From an uncultured Ectothiorhodospiraceae bacterium (lineage in GTDB: Bacteria; Pseudomonadota; Gammaproteobacteria; Nevskiales; Oceanococcaceae), in contig CAKZQS010000038.1 of NCBI GenBank assembly GCA_937141935.1, forward strand, positions 1 through 64,000: a stretch of DNA of 64,000 nt, written 5' to 3'. The translations under genes and the position numbers were made by a program. Under the pieces are notes generated by a model. That model was given only the letters and a program-made list of their open reading frames with translations. It ran no database searches and was not told the origin of the DNA. Shown in pieces: positions 19,623 through 36,354 of this stretch. Position 1 is the stretch's first letter. The number at the start of each line of letters is the position of its first letter.

Positions 19623-22370
19623 TCAGTCGCGGCCGAAGAAGCGGTCCAGCTCGGCCGTCGCCGCACCGGCCGCCGGCGGCTCCGGCGGCGGCATCTGCAG
19701 CGCCTGGGCGTGGTTGTACTCGCGCAGCGCGCGGTAGCGCTGGCCCAGCGCGCGGGAAAGCTCCGGCGTGATCAGCTCGACGTCGGCCGCCGCCTCGACG
19801 ATGCGCAGCAGGTCGGAATAGCGCACCAGCGCCGGGTGCTCACTCGCATGCGCCAGCACCAGCCACTGCGCATAAAACTCGATATCCACCAACCCGCCGG
19901 GGGCGTGCTTGGGGTCGTAATCCGGCCCCTGGCTGAGCTCGCGGGCCATCTTGGCGCGCATCTCCACGATCTCGCCGCGCAGCGCCTCCGGCTCGCGACG
20001 GCGCTGCAAGACTTCGGCGCGCTGCGCGGCGAATTCGGCCTGCACGGTTTCGCTGCCCCAGATCGGCCGCGCCCGCACCAGCGCCTGCTGCTCCCAGGTC
20101 CACGCCGATTCGCGCTGATAGCGGGCAAAGGCGGCCAGCGAGGTCACCAGCAGCCCCGCGTTGCCGTTGGGCCGCAGGCGGGTGTCCACCTCGTAGCAGC
20201 GGCCGGCCCCGGTGCGCGTGGCCAGCGCATTGATCAGCTTTTGCACCAGGCGGGTGTAGAACTCCTGCGGCTCGCGGTCAACGCCCTCGATCTGCGCATC
20301 CTTGTAGACGAAGACCAGGTCCAGATCGGAGCTGTAGGAGAGCTCCAGCCCGCCGAGCTTGCCGTAGGCCACGACCGCGAAGTTCATCGCGCCCAGCTGC
20401 GGCCAGCGTTCGCGCATCTGCGCCACGGCAATGGCCAGCGCGCCGCCGACGATCTCCTCGGCCAGCTCGCTCAAGTGGTCCGAAACCCGCATCAGCGGCA
20501 GCGCGTGGGCCGCATCCGCCGCCGCGATGCGCAACGCGGTGGCGTGCTTGATGCGGCGCAGCTGCTCCAGGCTGTCCTCGATGTCGCCATCGTCGCAGGC
20601 GGCCAGCTGGCGGGCGATATGCCGGCGCAGGCTGCTCCGGCTGGGCGGCGCGTACAGGCTTTCCGGCTGGCACAGCTCGACCAGCAGCGCCGGGTGCCGG
20701 GTCAGCTCGGCGGCGATGAAGCCGCTGCGGGCGCAGAGCTGCACCAGCTCGCGGCGGGCCTCACCATGCTCGCGCAACATCGTGACGTAGTTCGGGCGCC
20801 CGGCGATCTCGGCGCTCAGCACCAGCAGCCGCTGCAGCGCCAAGGCATCCGGCGCGGCGTCCAGCAGACGCACGGCCAGTGTCAGCAGCGCCTCGCGGTC
20901 GGCCGGCGCGCGCAGCATGCGCTGGGCGCTGCGCGCCAGGTCGGTTAGCGCCTCGGCGTGCTCGGCAAAGGGTGCGGGCCACTGCGGCGACTCGGACTGC
21001 AGCGCGGCCAGCAAGGCCTGCGCCGGCGGTGGCAGTGCCGCATCCTCGGTTGGCGTGAACAGCTCGAGGAAATGCGCGCGCACGCGCCGGCGCACCTCGC
21101 TCAGCGCCTCCTCAAAGCTGGCCCAGTCGGCGATACGCAGGCCCACCAGCAGCCGCTGGCGGGGCTCTTCGTCGCTGGGCAGTACATGGCTCTGCGCATC
21201 GTCCAGCGCCTGCCAGGTGTTCTCGACCTGGCGCAAGAACCAGTAATGCTCGCGCCAGCGCGCGGCGAAGTCCGGCTCCACCAGCCCTTCCGTGCGCAGG
21301 GCCTCCAGCGCGCGGATGAAGCTGCGCTGCTGCAGGCTGGGCCGGGCGCCGCCATGGATCAACTGCAGGGCCTGCACGGCGAATTCCATCTCGCGGATGC
21401 CGCCCCAGCCCCGCTTGATGTCCTGCTCGCGGCCGCGCGCGCGCACATCGGCATCGATCTCGTCCTTCATGCGGCGCAGGCCGGCCAGCTGGCCAAAATC
21501 GATGTAACGGCGGTAAATGAAGGGCCGCAGTGTTTCCAGCCAGGCCTCGCCCAGGCGCTTGGCGCCGGCGATGCAGCGCGCCTTTTGCCAGGCATAGCGC
21601 TCCCAGTCGCGGGCATGGGCCTCAAAGTAGGCATCCAGCGCCGACAGCGACAGGCTCGGGGCGCCCTGCGAGCCGAAGGGGCGCAGGCGCAGGTCGACGC
21701 GAAAGACGAAGCCTTCGGACTGCGCCTCGGACAGCGAGCGCGTCAGCCGCTGCACCAGCCGCGCCATGAACTCCTCGATGCTGGTCTGCTCGGTACCGCC
21801 CGGCGCGCTATGGGCGATGACCAGGTCGATGTCCGAGGAAAAATTCAGCTCCCGCCCGCCAAGCTTGCCCAGCGCGAAGACCAGCGGCCGGATGCGCTTG
21901 CCGGAGGCGGCCTTGGGCGTGCCCTTTTGCGCACACAGCCGCGCCCAATGCGCATCCAGCGCGATGCCCACCAGGTGGTCCGCCATCGCGCTGAGGCCGT
22001 GCACCGTCTGCTCGGGGCTGTCCCAGCCCAGCGCCTGACGGGCGGCCAGGCGCACCATCTCGGCGTTACGCGCGCGGCGCAGCCAGGGGTCCAGGGCCGT
22101 GGGCTCGTCCGCCGGGGGCTGCGCCGGCGGCGGTGGCGCGAACTGCGCCGCCAGCAGCGCGGCGAAGGCCGCGGGCTCGCGCCGCGCCCAGGCGGCAATG
22201 AAGCGGCTGGCGGCCAGCAGCTGTGCGGCGCACTCCCGCTCGGCCCCGGGGGCCAGCTCCAGCGCATCGAGCTGCTCGATGATGCGGCGCTGCGCCGTAT
22301 CCGGCAGCCGCTCCAGCACAAAGCGATAATCGCCGCTGATTTCGCGGTCCTGGGTTGCAGTGGCGTCCAT
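19623..22370 (-). CDS. glnE: Glutamine synthetase adenylyltransferase / adenylyl-removing enzyme
   Basis: 915 residues, normal for GlnE. Adds and removes AMP on glutamine synthetase in response to PII and glutamine. Two nucleotidyltransferase domains: N-terminal ALGKLGGRELNFSSDIDLV (about 166-184, the adenylyl-removing half) and C-terminal AYGKLGGLELSYSSDLDLVF (about 665-685, the adenylating half). Both keep the Ser-Asp-X-Asp metal-binding residues. The GGIREMEF sequence after the first domain is the family linker. Its ATG at 22370 overlaps the start of the divergent esterase gene by 11 bases. rpoN and ptsN, also nitrogen-related, lie 14 kb away. Confidence 0.96.
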   Translation of the reverse strand: MDATATQDREISGDYRFVLERLPDTAQRRIIEQLDALELAPGAERECAAQLLAASRFIAAWARREPAAFAALLAAQFAPPPPAQPPADEPTALDPWLRRARNAEMVRLAARQALGWDSPEQTVHGLSAMADHLVGIALDAHWARLCAQKGTPKAASGKRIRPLVFALGKLGGRELNFSSDIDLVIAHSAPGGTEQTSIEEFMARLVQRLTRSLSEAQSEGFVFRVDLRLRPFGSQGAPSLSLSALDAYFEAHARDWERYAWQKARCIAGAKRLGEAWLETLRPFIYRRYIDFGQLAGLRRMKDEIDADVRARGREQDIKRGWGGIREMEFAVQALQLIHGGARPSLQQRSFIRALEALRTEGLVEPDFAARWREHYWFLRQVENTWQALDDAQSHVLPSDEEPRQRLLVGLRIADWASFEEALSEVRRRVRAHFLELFTPTEDAALPPPAQALLAALQSESPQWPAPFAEHAEALTDLARSAQRMLRAPADREALLTLAVRLLDAAPDALALQRLLVLSAEIAGRPNYVTMLREHGEARRELVQLCARSGFIAAELTRHPALLVELCQPESLYAPPSRSSLRRHIARQLAACDDGDIEDSLEQLRRIKHATALRIAAADAAHALPLMRVSDHLSELAEEIVGGALAIAVAQMRERWPQLGAMNFAVVAYGKLGGLELSYSSDLDLVFVYKDAQIEGVDREPQEFYTRLVQKLINALATRTGAGRCYEVDTRLRPNGNAGLLVTSLAAFARYQRESAWTWEQQALVRARPIWGSETVQAEFAAQRAEVLQRRREPEALRGEIVEMRAKMARELSQGPDYDPKHAPGGLVDIEFYAQWLVLAHASEHPALVRYSDLLRIVEAAADVELITPELSRALGQRYRALREYNHAQALQMPPPEPPAAGAATAELDRFFGRD

Positions 22371-22947
22371 CTCCCTACTCTATCTGCACGGGCTGGGTTC
22401 CAGCGGCCACAGCGACACCGGCCAGTACCTGCGCCGGCACTATGCCGGGCGCTGCGCGCTGCAATGCCCGAGCTACCGCCCGCAGTTCTTCCACGAATCG
22501 GTGACCCGGATAGACGCCTGGCTGCGCGCCGCGCTGGCCGCGGGGCCGGTGGCGGTGCTGGGCAGCTCGATGGGCGGCTGGCATGCGCTGCATGCGCTGG
22601 CGCGCCACCCGCGGCTGCATGTGCTGGCCCTGAACCCGGTGCTCGACCCCAGCGTGCTGGGCCAGGGCCAGCCGCGCGACGATGTGGACCAGCGCAGCGG
22701 CGAAGCCCTGCCCTGGCCCGAGCTGATCGCCGCCAACTTCCCCCCGGCGCCCATCGACACGCTGCCGGTCGAGCGCCTGCGGGTCATGATCGGCGCCGCC
22801 GACGATGTCGTGCCCCCGGGCCCAACGCTGGAGCACTGCCAGGCGCGCGGCATCAGCCACCGCCTCTACGACTGGGGCCACCGCGCCGAACTCGGCGCCG
22901 ACTTCGCCGCGGAAATCGACGGGCTGCTGGAGCGGGCCGCGGGCTGA
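22360..22947 (+). CDS. yqiA: YqiA/YcfP-family alpha/beta-fold esterase
   Basis: 195 residues from a GTG start that gives VASISLLYLHGLGSSGHSD, aligned with the known YqiA start. The nucleophile elbow is VLGSSMGGWHALH (Ser near residue 70), with the late His in LYDWGHRAELG. Cytosolic short-chain acyl or phospho-glycerol esterases have been proposed for this family. Its first codons lie inside the start of glnE on the other strand, so the two promoters must lie within each other's coding sequence. Confidence 0.85.
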   Translation: MASISLLYLHGLGSSGHSDTGQYLRRHYAGRCALQCPSYRPQFFHESVTRIDAWLRAALAAGPVAVLGSSMGGWHALHALARHPRLHVLALNPVLDPSVLGQGQPRDDVDQRSGEALPWPELIAANFPPAPIDTLPVERLRVMIGAADDVVPPGPTLEHCQARGISHRLYDWGHRAELGADFAAEIDGLLERAAG

Positions 22948-23525
22948 CCCGCAGCGCGCTGCGCCGCCGCTCTCCGGGCGGCTGGACGCCCCCGCAGTCG
23001 CAACTTCGCCTCGGCGCCAGGGCTCCGCGGCCTGTCCCTGCGGACGGGCCGCCGATCCCCTCAACAGAAAGTTCTTAGAAGGTGGCGCTCGTGACGGCAC
23101 GCAGTTCCACCGCGATCGTCGGCATGCCTGGCGCGCGGCGGGGATGGCCGGCGGCGACAGGCCGGCGAGCCCCTGCGCCGACGCCGATAGCCGCGCTTGG
23201 GTTGCCGGCAAACCGAAGGCCCGGCACAGCGCTGCGGATCGGCGGCCCGTTCGCCACAGGTCAGCGCCCCTGGCGTCCCTATAACCCAAAGTGCGGCGGA
23301 ACTCGCTGAGAAAAAAAGGGCGGCGGGTCTTGCGACCCGCCGCAATGCCCTCTTGCAAGGGCCAGGGTATGTTTACCCTCCGCTCACATCGCCGTGTGGA
23401 CCACGGCTGTGATATCCGCTTGCATACCGACGCAAGACACGGTCTGATTGGGGAATACGCAATCGCGCGACCAAAGCGGACACGGGCGGCAAAAAAAAAA
23501 TCGCGCTGGTCAGGGAGGGCACAGC
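22948..23525. other. Longest gene-free stretch, with several stem-loops
   Basis: 578 bases. The first 370 bases show only short overlapping reading frames on both strands with no recognisable protein. From 23311 to 23407 there is a cluster of inverted repeats ending in a minus-strand intrinsic terminator (separate entry). From 23491 to 23500 lies a run of ten A, unusual in this GC-rich DNA, followed by a strong ribosome site AGGGAGGG at about 23512-23519 for the kinase gene. Confidence 0.6.
23311..23407 (-). ncRNA. Candidate structured small RNA ending in an intrinsic terminator
   Basis: Read on the minus strand, four perfect stems follow one another: GCCGTG/CACGGC (23407-23391), GGGTA/TACCC (23378-23365), GCCCT/AGGGC (23362-23347) and GCGGCGGGTC/GACCCGCCGC with a GCAA tetraloop (23343-23320), then seven T (23317-23311). 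No minus-strand protein gene lies upstream to need this terminator. A weak promoter TTGCGT-15-TATCAC is present at 23435-23409. The RNA would be about 95 nt. The terminator is well supported; that it ends a real small RNA is inference. Confidence 0.45.
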
Positions 23526-26231
23526 ATGAGCAGGGCTGAGGAGCCTGGAGCGGAGCCTGGGGAGGCTCTGGACCGCATCCTGGATGCGGTGATTGATCTA
23601 CCGCCGGCGCAACGCCTGGAGCGGGCACGCGCGCTGTGTGCCGACCGCCCCGCCTTGTGGGCGGAGGTGGCCCGGGTGCTCAAGCTGGACGCCCAGGCCG
23701 GGGCGGACTTCCTGCAACGGGAGGCGCCGGCCGCGGATGCCCCACCTCAGGCGGCGCAGGCCGCCGACCCGGTGACGCCGCCGGGGACGCGCATCGGCAG
23801 CTGGGAGGTCGTGGGCCTGATCGGCCGCGGTGGCATGGGCGAGGTACTGGAGGTGCGTCGCGCCGACGGCCAGTACGACATGCGCGCCGCCCTCAAACGC
23901 CTGCGCGACACCAGCGCCGAGCACGCCGAAAGGCTGCAGCGCGAACGCCAGATCCTGGCGGCGCTGCGCCACCCGCACATCGCCCAGCTGCTCGACGGTG
24001 GCGTGGATGCCGCCGGTCATCCCTGGATGGTGATGGAGTATGTCGAGGGCGAGCCGCTGGATCGCTGGGCCCAGGGCCAGAGCCTGGCCGCCCGCATGGC
24101 GGTCTTCGAGCAGATCGTGGCCGCCGTCGGCCACGCCCATGCGCACCTGGTCGTGCATCGCGACATCAAACCCGCCAATGTGCTGGTCGATGCGCAGGGC
24201 CGGGCCAAGCTGCTCGACTTCGGCATTGCCAAGCTGATGACCGCGCTGCGCAGCGGCGAGCAGACCCAGGCGCTGGCCACCCCCAATTACGCCGCACCCG
24301 AGCAGCTGCTGGGCGAGGCGGTCACCGTGCACACCGATGTCTACGGGCTGGGCGCCACGCTGTACAGCCTGCTTTGCGGCCAGGCGCCGCTGGCGCTGGA
24401 GGGTCTGTCGCTGCCGCAGCTGGTCGACCGCGTGCGCCATGCGCAGCCCGCCCCGCCCAGCCTCCGCGGCCCGGCGCCCGATGTGCCGGCCGATCTCGAT
24501 GCGGTGTGCCTGCATTGTCTGGCCAAGGAGCGCCAGCATCGTTATGCCAGCGTCGCCGACCTGGCGGCCGACCTGAAGAACCTGCGCGAAGGCTTTCCCG
24601 TGGCCGCCAAGCCGCCCACGCGGCTCGGCGCCCTGTGGCGGCTGGTGCAACGGCATCGCGTGGCCAGCCTGGCCGCCACGGCCATCAGCCTCAGCGTGCT
24701 GCTGGGGCTGGCTGGCTTCGCCTGGCAGGCCACCATTGCGCTGCAGGAGCGCGACATCGCCGGGCGCGAGGCGCAGCGCCTGCATGGCCTGCGCAATGCC
24801 GTGCTGAACCTGTTTCGCAGCACGGCCGAGGCCGACGCGGCCCTGGACTCCCGCGAGATCTTCGCCCGCACCGCGCAGGCCGCGGAATCGCTGCAGGACA
24901 CCGAACCCGCCACCGCCGCCACGCTGTGGCAGATCCTGGGCCAGCTGCACCTGTTGAACGAGGACTACACCGCCGGCCGCGCGCTGCTGGAAAAGGTCAT
25001 TGCGATGCCGCCGCAGCAAATCGCGCCGGGGGTGCGCGCCGATGCGCTGCTGAACCTCGCGCACATCGCCTTTCGCGACCGCGACTTCGCGCAGACACGG
25101 GCCTTGCTGGCCCAGGCGCAGGCCATCTGGGACCAGGCGCCGGCGCTGTACCGCAACGAAAGCCTGCCGGCGCTGACGCTGCGCTCGCAGCTGGCGCGCG
25201 CCGAGGGCCAGGACGCGCGCGCCATCGCCATCCTGCGGGAGGCCCACCGCCAGGCGGTGGCGATCTGGGGCCCCGACCACTCCGAATCGGCCGTACTGCT
25301 GATCAACCTGGCCGCCACGCAGTACTACGCCGGCGAGCTGGATGCTGCGGTTGCCACCTCGGCGCAGGCCTATGCCGCCTACCAACGCATGGGCAAGGCC
25401 GACTCGCCCGACGCGCTGAACCTGCTGGCCAACTGGGGCGTGTATGCGCTGCGCGCCGGCCGGCCACTGGAGGCCGAGCGGCGGCTGAGCGAGGCCCTGG
25501 AGCTGCGCACGCGGCTGTATGGCGCCTCCGCCGCGCAGGCGGTGCTGATGAAGAACCTGGGCCTGGCCCACCTGGTCAACGGCCGCGAGCAGGACGGCAT
25601 GGACCTGCTGGAGCAGAGCCAGTGGATGGCCGAGCGCTATGCCGGGGCCGAGTCGCATCTGCATATCGCCGCCTGTTGCCGGCTGGCCGGCATTCAGCTG
25701 CGTCGCGGCGACCTGGCCGGGGCCCGCGCCGCGCTGGCGCCGCTGCCCGCCGGTGCGCTGCAACGCGATACCCACTGGGGCGATTACTGCCGCGGGCTGG
25801 CCGGCTTGCTGGCCAGCCCGGCCCGCCCGGTCGAGGCGGAGGTGCAGGCCCTGCTGGACCGCGGCGCGCGCGGCCGCAACTACGCCGCCGACCTGCTCGA
25901 CAGCGTGGGCGCGCGCGCCTGGCAGCAACAGCAGGCGGCAACGGCGGCGGCGGCCTGGGAACGCGCCGCGGCGCTCAAGGGCGAGGTCCGCGGCGCGCAG
26001 CATTACGAAACGCTGCAAATCGCGTTGCGCCACGCCCAGGCGCTGCTCGCCCAGGGCCAGCGCGAACAGGGCCAGGCGCAATGGCGCCAGGCGCTGGCGG
26101 CACTGGAGCGATCGCTGGGCCCGGACCACCCGCTGGTGGCGCGCGAGCGCGCGCTCAGTCCGGCTCGTTCAGCGCCTCGTACAGCGCCGCCCGCGCTTTT
26201 AGCCAGTCCCGACGCAGAGTCCGCGTCGTAA
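23526..26231 (+). CDS. Membrane-bound Ser/Thr protein kinase with C-terminal TPR domain
   Basis: 901 residues. Kinase domain at about 93-360: glycine loop LIGRGGMGEVLEV, lysine in AALKRL (about 124), catalytic HRDIKPANVLV (about 210) and LLDFGIAKL. One membrane span follows (VASLAATAISLSVLLGLAGF, about 378-405). The rest is helical repeat sequence of the TPR type up to the end. The kinase is thus cytoplasmic with a TPR region beyond the membrane. Such kinases are commonly next to the kinase-linked ECF sigma factor subgroup, as here: the sigma gene converges on it and the two overlap by 77 bases. Probably a signal-responsive partner of the sigma factor. Confidence 0.92.
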   Translation: MSRAEEPGAEPGEALDRILDAVIDLPPAQRLERARALCADRPALWAEVARVLKLDAQAGADFLQREAPAADAPPQAAQAADPVTPPGTRIGSWEVVGLIGRGGMGEVLEVRRADGQYDMRAALKRLRDTSAEHAERLQRERQILAALRHPHIAQLLDGGVDAAGHPWMVMEYVEGEPLDRWAQGQSLAARMAVFEQIVAAVGHAHAHLVVHRDIKPANVLVDAQGRAKLLDFGIAKLMTALRSGEQTQALATPNYAAPEQLLGEAVTVHTDVYGLGATLYSLLCGQAPLALEGLSLPQLVDRVRHAQPAPPSLRGPAPDVPADLDAVCLHCLAKERQHRYASVADLAADLKNLREGFPVAAKPPTRLGALWRLVQRHRVASLAATAISLSVLLGLAGFAWQATIALQERDIAGREAQRLHGLRNAVLNLFRSTAEADAALDSREIFARTAQAAESLQDTEPATAATLWQILGQLHLLNEDYTAGRALLEKVIAMPPQQIAPGVRADALLNLAHIAFRDRDFAQTRALLAQAQAIWDQAPALYRNESLPALTLRSQLARAEGQDARAIAILREAHRQAVAIWGPDHSESAVLLINLAATQYYAGELDAAVATSAQAYAAYQRMGKADSPDALNLLANWGVYALRAGRPLEAERRLSEALELRTRLYGASAAQAVLMKNLGLAHLVNGREQDGMDLLEQSQWMAERYAGAESHLHIAACCRLAGIQLRRGDLAGARAALAPLPAGALQRDTHWGDYCRGLAGLLASPARPVEAEVQALLDRGARGRNYAADLLDSVGARAWQQQQAATAAAAWERAAALKGEVRGAQHYETLQIALRHAQALLAQGQREQGQAQWRQALAALERSLGPDHPLVARERALSPARSAPRTAPPALLASPDAESAS

Positions 26232-26697
26232 CGCCCAGGGCCGCCGCGGTCTCCTCGTCGCTGTAGCCGGCGAAATAGCGGCATTCGACCAGCGCCACCA
26301 GCCGCGGCTCGCTGCCGCGCAGCTTTTCCAGGGCCCGGTCCAGCGCCATCAGCGTCTCGGCATCCTCGCCCTCGTCCGCGGCCACCTGGTGCGGGAAATC
26401 GGTGGCGTCCAGCGACAACGGCCGCGCGCCGCTGCCGCGCTTGTGCGCCAGGCTGGCGCGCGCGGCATCCACCAACACCTGGCGCATGGCCTGGGCGGCC
26501 GTCATCAAAAAGTGCTGGCGGCTCTCGTAGGCATGATGGTTGGCCAGCTTCAGAAAGGCCTCGTTGACCAGTGCCGTTGTGGCCAGCGTCTGCCCGGCCA
26601 CCAGCTTGCGCCGCTCGCGGCGCGCGTGGACCTTGAGTTCGTCGTAAAGCGCGGCGTACAGCGCCCCCGCCCCCTGCTCGGTGAGCCTCTCGGTCAT
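26155..26697 (-). CDS. ECF-type RNA polymerase sigma factor (kinase-associated subgroup)
   Basis: 180 residues. Region 2 is represented by LATTALVNEAFLKLANH and HFLMTAAQAMRQVLVDAARA. Region 4 has a helix-turn-helix near YFAGYSDEETAAALGVTTRT followed by LRRDWLKARAALY. This is the pattern of the TIGR02999-like ECF group that occurs beside Ser/Thr kinases and lacks a classic anti-sigma factor. GGAGGG lies 5 bases before the ATG. No anti-sigma gene is adjacent; control by phosphorylation from the neighbouring kinase is the likely but unproven mode. Confidence 0.9.
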   Translation of the reverse strand: MTERLTEQGAGALYAALYDELKVHARRERRKLVAGQTLATTALVNEAFLKLANHHAYESRQHFLMTAAQAMRQVLVDAARASLAHKRGSGARPLSLDATDFPHQVAADEGEDAETLMALDRALEKLRGSEPRLVALVECRYFAGYSDEETAAALGVTTRTLRRDWLKARAALYEALNEPD

Positions 26698-26863
26698 CGC
26701 ATCCCTCCGCTCTTATGGCTTTTCGTCCCCGGGACCATGGTGCGCCGCCGCGCAGGGCAACTCAAGACTCCCGGCGGGCGGCTCACCCACGCCGCCCGCC
26801 GCCCGCCGTCCAGGGACGCGTTGCTATCATCCGCCGCCCTGCCCCGCCGAATGTCGCCTGCCG
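26698..26863. promoter_or_regulatory. Divergent region between sigma factor and rdgC
   Basis: 166 bases. TATCAT at 26825-26830 could be the rdgC -10 hexamer; no convincing -35 is seen. Nothing clear serves the sigma gene apart from its ribosome site. Confidence 0.3.
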
Positions 26864-27784
26864 ATGTGGTTCAAGAATCTGTGCCTGTTCCAGTTCCCCG
26901 AAAGCTTCACGCTGGCCCCGGCCGCGCTGGAGGAGGCGCTGGGGGCGCACCCGCTGGGTGACTGCCCCGGCGGCAGCGCGCAGACCCAGGGCTGGGTGCC
27001 GGTCCTGACCGACGGCGGGCTGGTGGAGGGCGTGGATCGCCACCTGTTCATCGCCTACGGCGAAAAGCAGCGGCTGCTGCCCGGCAGCGTGGTGACCCAG
27101 GCCCTGGCCGAAAAGGTCGAGCACTTCACCGCCAGCCGCGGCTACAAGCCCGGGCGCAAGCAGCGCATGGAAATGCGCGAAGAACTGACGGCGCAGCTGC
27201 TGCCGCAGGCCTTCGTCGTGCAAAAGAGCTGCCGCGCCTGGATCGACAGCGAGCGGGGCTGGCTGGTGGTCGACGCGGCCTCGCTGAACCAGGCCGAAAA
27301 GCTGGTCGAGCTGCTGCGCGAGCACGCCCCGGAGCTGCCGCGCATCATCCTGCCGGACACCAGCGTGGGCACGCAGACGCTGATGACCGAGTGGCTGGGC
27401 CGGGGCGAGGCGCCGGGCCGCTTCAGCCTCGATGACGAGGCCGAGGTACAGGGCACCGATGCGACCAAGTCGCTGATCCGTTACAGCCGCATGCCGGTGG
27501 GCTCGGCCACCGAGCTGCGCCGGCACCTGGAATCGGGCAAGCGCGCAGTCAAGCTGGGCTTGAGCTGGGACGACCGGCTGAACTTCGTGCTGACGGAAAT
27601 GCTGCAGCTCAAGCGCTTGAAGCTGCTGGAAACCCAGGCCGAGGACGACGCCGTGCGCGAGGACGACCCGCGCCTGGCCTTCGAGACCGACATGCGCCTG
27701 ATGACCGGGCTGCTGCGCGAAGTGCTGGCCGACCTGGGCCGCGAGCTGGGCATGCGCGGCCCGGCCATCAGCGTGGCCGCATGA
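26864..27784 (+). CDS. rdgC: Recombination-associated protein RdgC
   Basis: 306 residues, the usual RdgC length. A ring-shaped dimer that coats DNA and limits RecA activity. The start MWFKNLCLFQFPESF and inner phrases VDRHLFIAYGEKQRLLPGSV, GYKPGRKQRMEMREEL, RAWIDSERGWLVVDAAS and the late LSWDDRLNFVLTEMLQLKRL are family sequence. The ATG at 26864 matches this start; an upstream in-frame start at 26681 adds low-complexity sequence. It overlaps the next membrane-protein gene by four bases. Confidence 0.96.
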   Translation: MWFKNLCLFQFPESFTLAPAALEEALGAHPLGDCPGGSAQTQGWVPVLTDGGLVEGVDRHLFIAYGEKQRLLPGSVVTQALAEKVEHFTASRGYKPGRKQRMEMREELTAQLLPQAFVVQKSCRAWIDSERGWLVVDAASLNQAEKLVELLREHAPELPRIILPDTSVGTQTLMTEWLGRGEAPGRFSLDDEAEVQGTDATKSLIRYSRMPVGSATELRRHLESGKRAVKLGLSWDDRLNFVLTEMLQLKRLKLLETQAEDDAVREDDPRLAFETDMRLMTGLLREVLADLGRELGMRGPAISVAA

Positions 27785-36274: not shown

Positions 36275-36304
36275 CCGCGCTTAGCGCATCGCTTTCACTA
36301 CCGG

Positions 36305-36325
36305 CGGCGGGCTACAGGCCCGCCG
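36305..36325 (+). other. Stem-loop between hpf and ptsN
   Basis: CGGCGGGC / GCCCGCCG, a perfect 8-bp stem with a TACAG loop, followed by TCGTCGTTTCT. The T content is too low for a sure terminator; it may give partial termination between hpf and ptsN. Confidence 0.45.
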
Positions 36326-36354
36326 TCGTCGTTTCTACCGGGAGAGAAGTGGCA

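Follow-up and report, generated by a model that had tools for sequence, protein, structure and literature searches.

A candidate small RNA at an orphan intrinsic terminator beside a Ser/Thr kinase gene

The small RNA Xoo2 of Xanthomonas oryzae (sRNA-Xoo2, RF02241), described in PMC3039613, resembles the element considered here in its general layout, with a length of about 80-90 nt, two hairpins, and a G+C-rich terminator with a U tail. Two other known families share parts of this architecture: suhB/mmgR (RF00519) has comparable terminator-proximal hairpins, and 6S RNA (RF00013) would resemble a longer form of the element in its similar length and long-range closing stem. A described system of another kind bears on the neighbourhood of the locus. 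ECF43 sigma factors, as described in PMC13147305, carry a QTTA-type motif whose threonine is phosphorylated by a partner kinase. The main text of that paper, which deals with such a kinase/sigma pair, contains neither 'small RNA' nor 'sRNA', so that, as far as that text goes, asking whether such a switch has an RNA arm would be new.

The window, that is, the whole stretch of 64,000 nucleotides that was analysed, is part of contig C38 of genome G000 (52 contigs, 3.57 Mb). The terminator at the centre of this analysis sits in a 578-bp gap that runs from a hydrolase gene to a Ser/Thr kinase gene, in the following setting:

19623-22370, minus strand, glnE
22360-22947, plus strand, YqiA/UPF0227-like hydrolase gene, the convergent neighbour of the module
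23311-23402, minus strand, proposed small RNA of about 92 nt, its 5' end placed by prediction and its block 23402-23344 aligned with the relative G001
23526-26231, plus strand, Ser/Thr kinase gene with a TPR region (Pfam PF00069, PF13424), the divergent neighbour
26155-26697, minus strand, gene for the ECF sigma factor paired with the kinase (PF07638, TIGR02999)

Within the gap, the module and its surroundings comprise:

23311-23317, minus strand, seven-T tract of the terminator
23320-23343, minus strand, intrinsic terminator hairpin of 10 pairs (9 G-C) with a GCAA loop and the tail CCTTTTTTTC
23347-23362, minus strand, hairpin 3, six pairs including one G-U, kept in G001
23364-23379, minus strand, hairpin 2, 6 bp
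23375-23384, minus strand, invariant AGCGGAGGGT, overlapping hairpin 2 and identical in the window and G001
23391-23407, minus strand, hairpin 1, 6 bp
23409-23435, minus strand, tentative weak sigma-70-like site TTGCGT-15-TATCAC
23473-23482, minus strand, TGTCCGCTTT, which may be the 5' strand of the closing stem if the RNA has a longer form

A sequence-only reading of this locus had described a textbook intrinsic terminator with a 10-bp stem, a GCAA loop and seven U, and all of these are present: a perfect 10-bp hairpin at 23343-23320 (minus strand) is followed by CC and then by seven T. Its further statement that no minus-strand gene lies upstream for at least 2.7 kb also holds, the nearest being the ECF sigma gene, which ends at 26155, 2.8 kb away. 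No upstream protein gene explains the terminator. When the 64-kb window was scanned for hairpins of at least eight pairs followed by a T tract, five sites were found, compared with 0-4 per shuffle. Three of the five have at least 10 pairs including at least nine G-C, a class represented by one site in total in 20 dinucleotide shuffles of the window. The other four sites are:

13088-13063, minus strand, terminator of 10 pairs with eight T, located 38 nt after the end of a DUF4785 gene on the same strand; very strong, ordinary
36302-36328, plus strand, hairpin-plus-T site about 470 nt past the sigma-54 gene
40800-40779, minus strand, terminator 21 nt behind a lactate/malate dehydrogenase gene
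54430-54403, minus strand, hairpin-plus-T site within a methyltransferase gene, probably a chance occurrence

Since one of these five strong sites lies within a gene, strong sites are not always real terminators. A looser scan of 20500-27000 gave two terminator sites against 2.2 expected, and there the site at 23343-23320 is unusual in its strength alone. The genome otherwise places terminators of this kind behind genes, and the one at 23343-23320 is an orphan.

The comparison genomes numbered 85 in all from the order, among them one other of the genus (G001) and two more of the family. G001 keeps the gene order sigma, kinase, module, hydrolase, glnE. Between its kinase and hydrolase genes, reading away from the kinase, come TGTCCGCTTT, AGCGGAGGGT with the hairpin that it leads into, another hairpin and, at the same place as in the window, a terminator of 11 pairs with the tail CTTTTTGTTG; a monooxygenase gene on the same strand starts about 90 nt after it. 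Conservation in this one relative extends beyond the terminator. The 59-nt pre-terminator block at 23402-23344 is identical to positions 199-255 of G001 locus L006 at 39 of 55 positions, with a score of 28 against a shuffle mean of 9.9 (sd 4.0), and two of 2000 shuffles did as well, a somewhat flattering figure given that the block edge at 23402 was picked after the alignment was seen. Neither flank is clearly conserved (71 of 2000 shuffles as good for the kinase-side part, 124 of 2000 for the part beyond the terminator). For the whole pre-terminator region up to the kinase start, two of 1000 shuffles were as good by end-free alignment and 33 of 2000 by local alignment. The kinase and hydrolase proteins are only 49% and 58% identical between the two genomes, so that unselected DNA would be expected to be near saturation; selection on the pre-terminator block is the simplest account of its similarity. 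The data do not bear out the proposal that an RNA must originate in the kinase 5' region; significant conservation sets in near 23402, at a distance of about 124 bp from the start of the kinase gene.

The 97-nt stretch that includes all the predicted hairpins folds at z -5.4, with none of 200 shuffles as good; minus the terminator, it shows a moderate excess of stability (z -2.9; 3/200). Three hairpins do precede the terminator, as had been claimed, though they are not three perfect stems, the one at 23362-23347 having a G-U pair. Nothing of the same kind corresponds in G001 to the first of them, at 23407-23391. In an alignment of the window and G001 modules fitted to the model, five of the six pairs of hairpin 2 are unchanged and the sixth is lost; hairpin 3 retains its six pairs, two of which differ on both sides; and all 10 terminator pairs can still form, two of them through G-U. 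In this alignment 97.7% of cells pair, compared with 33-52% when partners are slid by 1-3 columns. For covariation, 101 of 500 column shuffles were as good, in a test that has two sequences and an alignment already fitted to the model. The pairing pattern thus agrees with a conserved fold but is not proof of one.

A covariance model built from the 80-nt module of the window alone (R1) gave 54 matches at E <= 0.01, in 35 genomes, when run over the 85 genomes of the order. The top match apart from the window itself was the syntenic place in G001, at 39.5 bits; the next scored 31.9. The E-values of this model overstate homology for anything with a terminator, and the argument therefore rests on synteny and on the pre-terminator block. 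The score of the G001 module under the model falls to only 2 bits when the terminator is removed; the model penalises the missing part. We fetched and checked 28 of the other 52 matches: 27 of these lie where a same-strand frame of at least 100 codons ends, compared with 161 of 600 places chosen at random. Neither the window module nor the G001 module lies at such a gene end, and this difference counts in favour of a small RNA.

A second model (R2), built from the window and G001 modules together, returned only those same two modules from 369 genomes of the class at E <= 1e-5 with strict filters. With laxer filters, over 39 genomes of the order, it returned the two plus seven matches at 27-32 bits in four genomes. 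These seven were rejected as members: one (L069) is among the 28 already checked, and the other six each stand behind a long open frame on their own strand. At the DNA level, a search of 100 genomes found the window itself and three terminator-sized matches. Searching DNA in the opposite direction, with G001 as the query against 85 genomes (E 10), gave scattered short matches, and the window module was not among the matches listed. A motif scan of viral contigs gave 14 loci, with a best model score of 16.8 bits and no further member.

No Rfam family reaches its threshold on the candidate. At the gathering score, Rfam finds only three tRNAs in the whole window; they form a cluster at 123-397 on the minus strand. 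Permissive scans of the locus and of the G001 module gave sub-threshold matches only. Xoo2 is the best of these for the G001 module, at 22.5 bits against a cut-off of 45, but this match reflects mainly layout and terminator, and the window module has no Xoo2 match even at E 10; we therefore do not place the element in that family. Across the 85 genomes of the order Xoo2 has three weak matches, none above the cut-off, and as read by eye they sit just behind stop codons. The best sub-threshold match of the window module, to suhB/mmgR, scores 18.3 bits, far under the cut-off of 41, and 12.6 bits in G001. 6S RNA has no match at the locus, and both genomes carry their own 6S above the cut-off elsewhere (G000:C1:67357-67532; G001:C5:230756-230938). 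A small protein was considered and rejected: minus-strand frames from the aligned ATG differ, by eye, from 13 codons in the window to 58 in G001, with no visible ribosome site. A CsrA sponge was likewise set aside, with only about two GGA motifs seen by eye.

Why does so strong a terminator stand where no gene ends? We put the probability at roughly one half that it closes a stand-alone, genus-restricted small RNA of about 92 nt on the minus strand, at about 23402-23311. Several observations argue for this. An orphan strong terminator occurs in the same orientation in both genomes of the genus; the block before it is conserved beyond the terminator itself, which is not clearly so of the flanking parts; and R1 ranks the syntenic G001 place first among 85 genomes. 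Against it we count that there are only two members, that covariation is not significant and that there is no consensus promoter. The suggestion of a minus-strand structured RNA without a host gene is thus borne out in part: module, orientation, terminator and position are kept in G001, while covariation is weak.

The main rival to the small RNA is a bare insulating terminator, which would stop divergent, antisense or read-through transcripts from the kinase promoter region or the distant sigma gene, the preceding hairpins having no function. We regard this as doubtful, though a serious contender. The terminator is indeed the strongest and best-conserved part of the module, very similar ones lie at many gene ends in the order, and a dedicated RNA would here be one without a clear promoter. 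In G001 the terminator also lies just ahead of the same-strand monooxygenase gene; the window, however, has no downstream gene on that strand to protect. Moreover, conservation reaches the preceding 59 nt independently of the terminator: they contain a 10-mer that is identical in both genomes and a hairpin whose changes are paired, and this argues against a bare terminator. The same monooxygenase gene raises another idea, that the module is the terminated leader (attenuator) of this gene, which starts so soon after it on the same strand, and was left behind in the window when the gene moved. This seems to us highly unlikely. The G000 orthologue of the monooxygenase, 77% identical, lies on another contig with no module in its preceding 300 nt, and there is no second model match in G000. 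The module travels instead with the kinase and hydrolase genes, and a cis-regulatory leader was rejected because constant linkage to one downstream gene is not seen.

The RNA might also be longer, about 170 nt (23482-23311), with TGTCCGCTTT paired with AGCGGA around internal hairpins; it would be a small RNA or a sensor-like element, with its first half overlapping the divergent kinase 5' region. The identity of TGTCCGCTTT in the two genomes is consistent with this, as is a 12-bp closing stem predicted in G001 at near-unit probability, and in the window the 6-bp core can be imposed at a cost of 1.2 kcal/mol, leaving the fold near-optimal. In the window, however, TGTCCGCTT is predicted to prefer a different pairing, conservation of the 5' half is no more than marginal, and no promoter is seen at a fitting distance. 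We consider this longer form improbable.

Transcription of the small RNA of about 92 nt would begin between the genes, at about 23402, and end at the intrinsic terminator, in the U tract 23317-23311. No consensus promoter for a minus-strand RNA was found at the locus. The weak sigma-70-like site at 23409-23435 scores 2.38, fourth in the window scan, and the corresponding G001 site, TTGAGC-16-TATTGC, scores 4.08, second in the G001 scan. The start that the window site would give, near 23402, coincides with the edge of the conserved block. Because these sites rank only fourth and second, and because better ones in the same stretch point towards the kinase (5.8 and 5.4 compared with 2.4), the promoter is to be taken as a hint only. 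The predicted RNA would open with a 5' segment of about 18 nt, followed by AGCGGAGGG, purine-rich and invariant, which runs into hairpin 2, and then by hairpin 3, the terminator hairpin and the U tail. It would most likely act in trans, through base-pairing between its exposed, purine-rich 5' segment and mRNA stretches rich in pyrimidines, and Hfq bound to the U tail could help this pairing. In a crude test, predicted duplexes between the first 48 nt of the RNA and the start regions of the kinase, sigma, hydrolase and glnE genes of both species, and of the G001 monooxygenase gene, had energies no better than those for shuffled regions (z -1.2 to +1.5). The AGCGGAGGG motif also occurs at the ribosome site of the sigma gene in the window (26710-26702, minus strand); this recurrence is not seen in G001, and a motif shared with the sigma promoter region was rejected.

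The ECF sigma gene (26155-26697, minus strand) overlaps the 3' end of the Hanks-type kinase gene (23526-26231, plus strand), and the pair is kept in G001. Region 2.2 of the sigma factor carries ATTALVNE, compared by eye with the ECF43 motif, and to judge from sequence the two genes look like an ECF43-type kinase-activated sigma pair. A link between the candidate RNA and this switch is possible. The RNA could be an undescribed, genus-specific component of the Hanks-kinase/ECF-sigma switch, divergent from the kinase gene, that either relays the state of the phospho-activated sigma factor post-transcriptionally or controls kinase synthesis from the shared 5' region, an idea that we offer as speculation with little weight. 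If real, the element would add one more lineage-specific small RNA without an Rfam family, beside an ECF43-like kinase/ECF-sigma pair. On the practical side, the case shows how an RNA candidate can be told apart from the many similar terminators at gene ends by means of an orphan terminator and one syntenic relative.

Finally, the gap between hydrolase and terminator contains a long imperfect inverted repeat, 23015-23058 / 23236-23276, in which 18 of the first 19 bp are complementary and which lets most of this gap fold as one large hairpin. The repeat has no copy at the syntenic place in G001, and only 35-nt partial matches elsewhere in G000. Its folding gives z -3.1 as DNA (2/200 shuffles as good) and, as RNA, z -2.8 on the plus strand and -1.9 on the minus strand. 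It is possibly the remnant of a mobile element, or a mere chance product of G+C-rich sequence.
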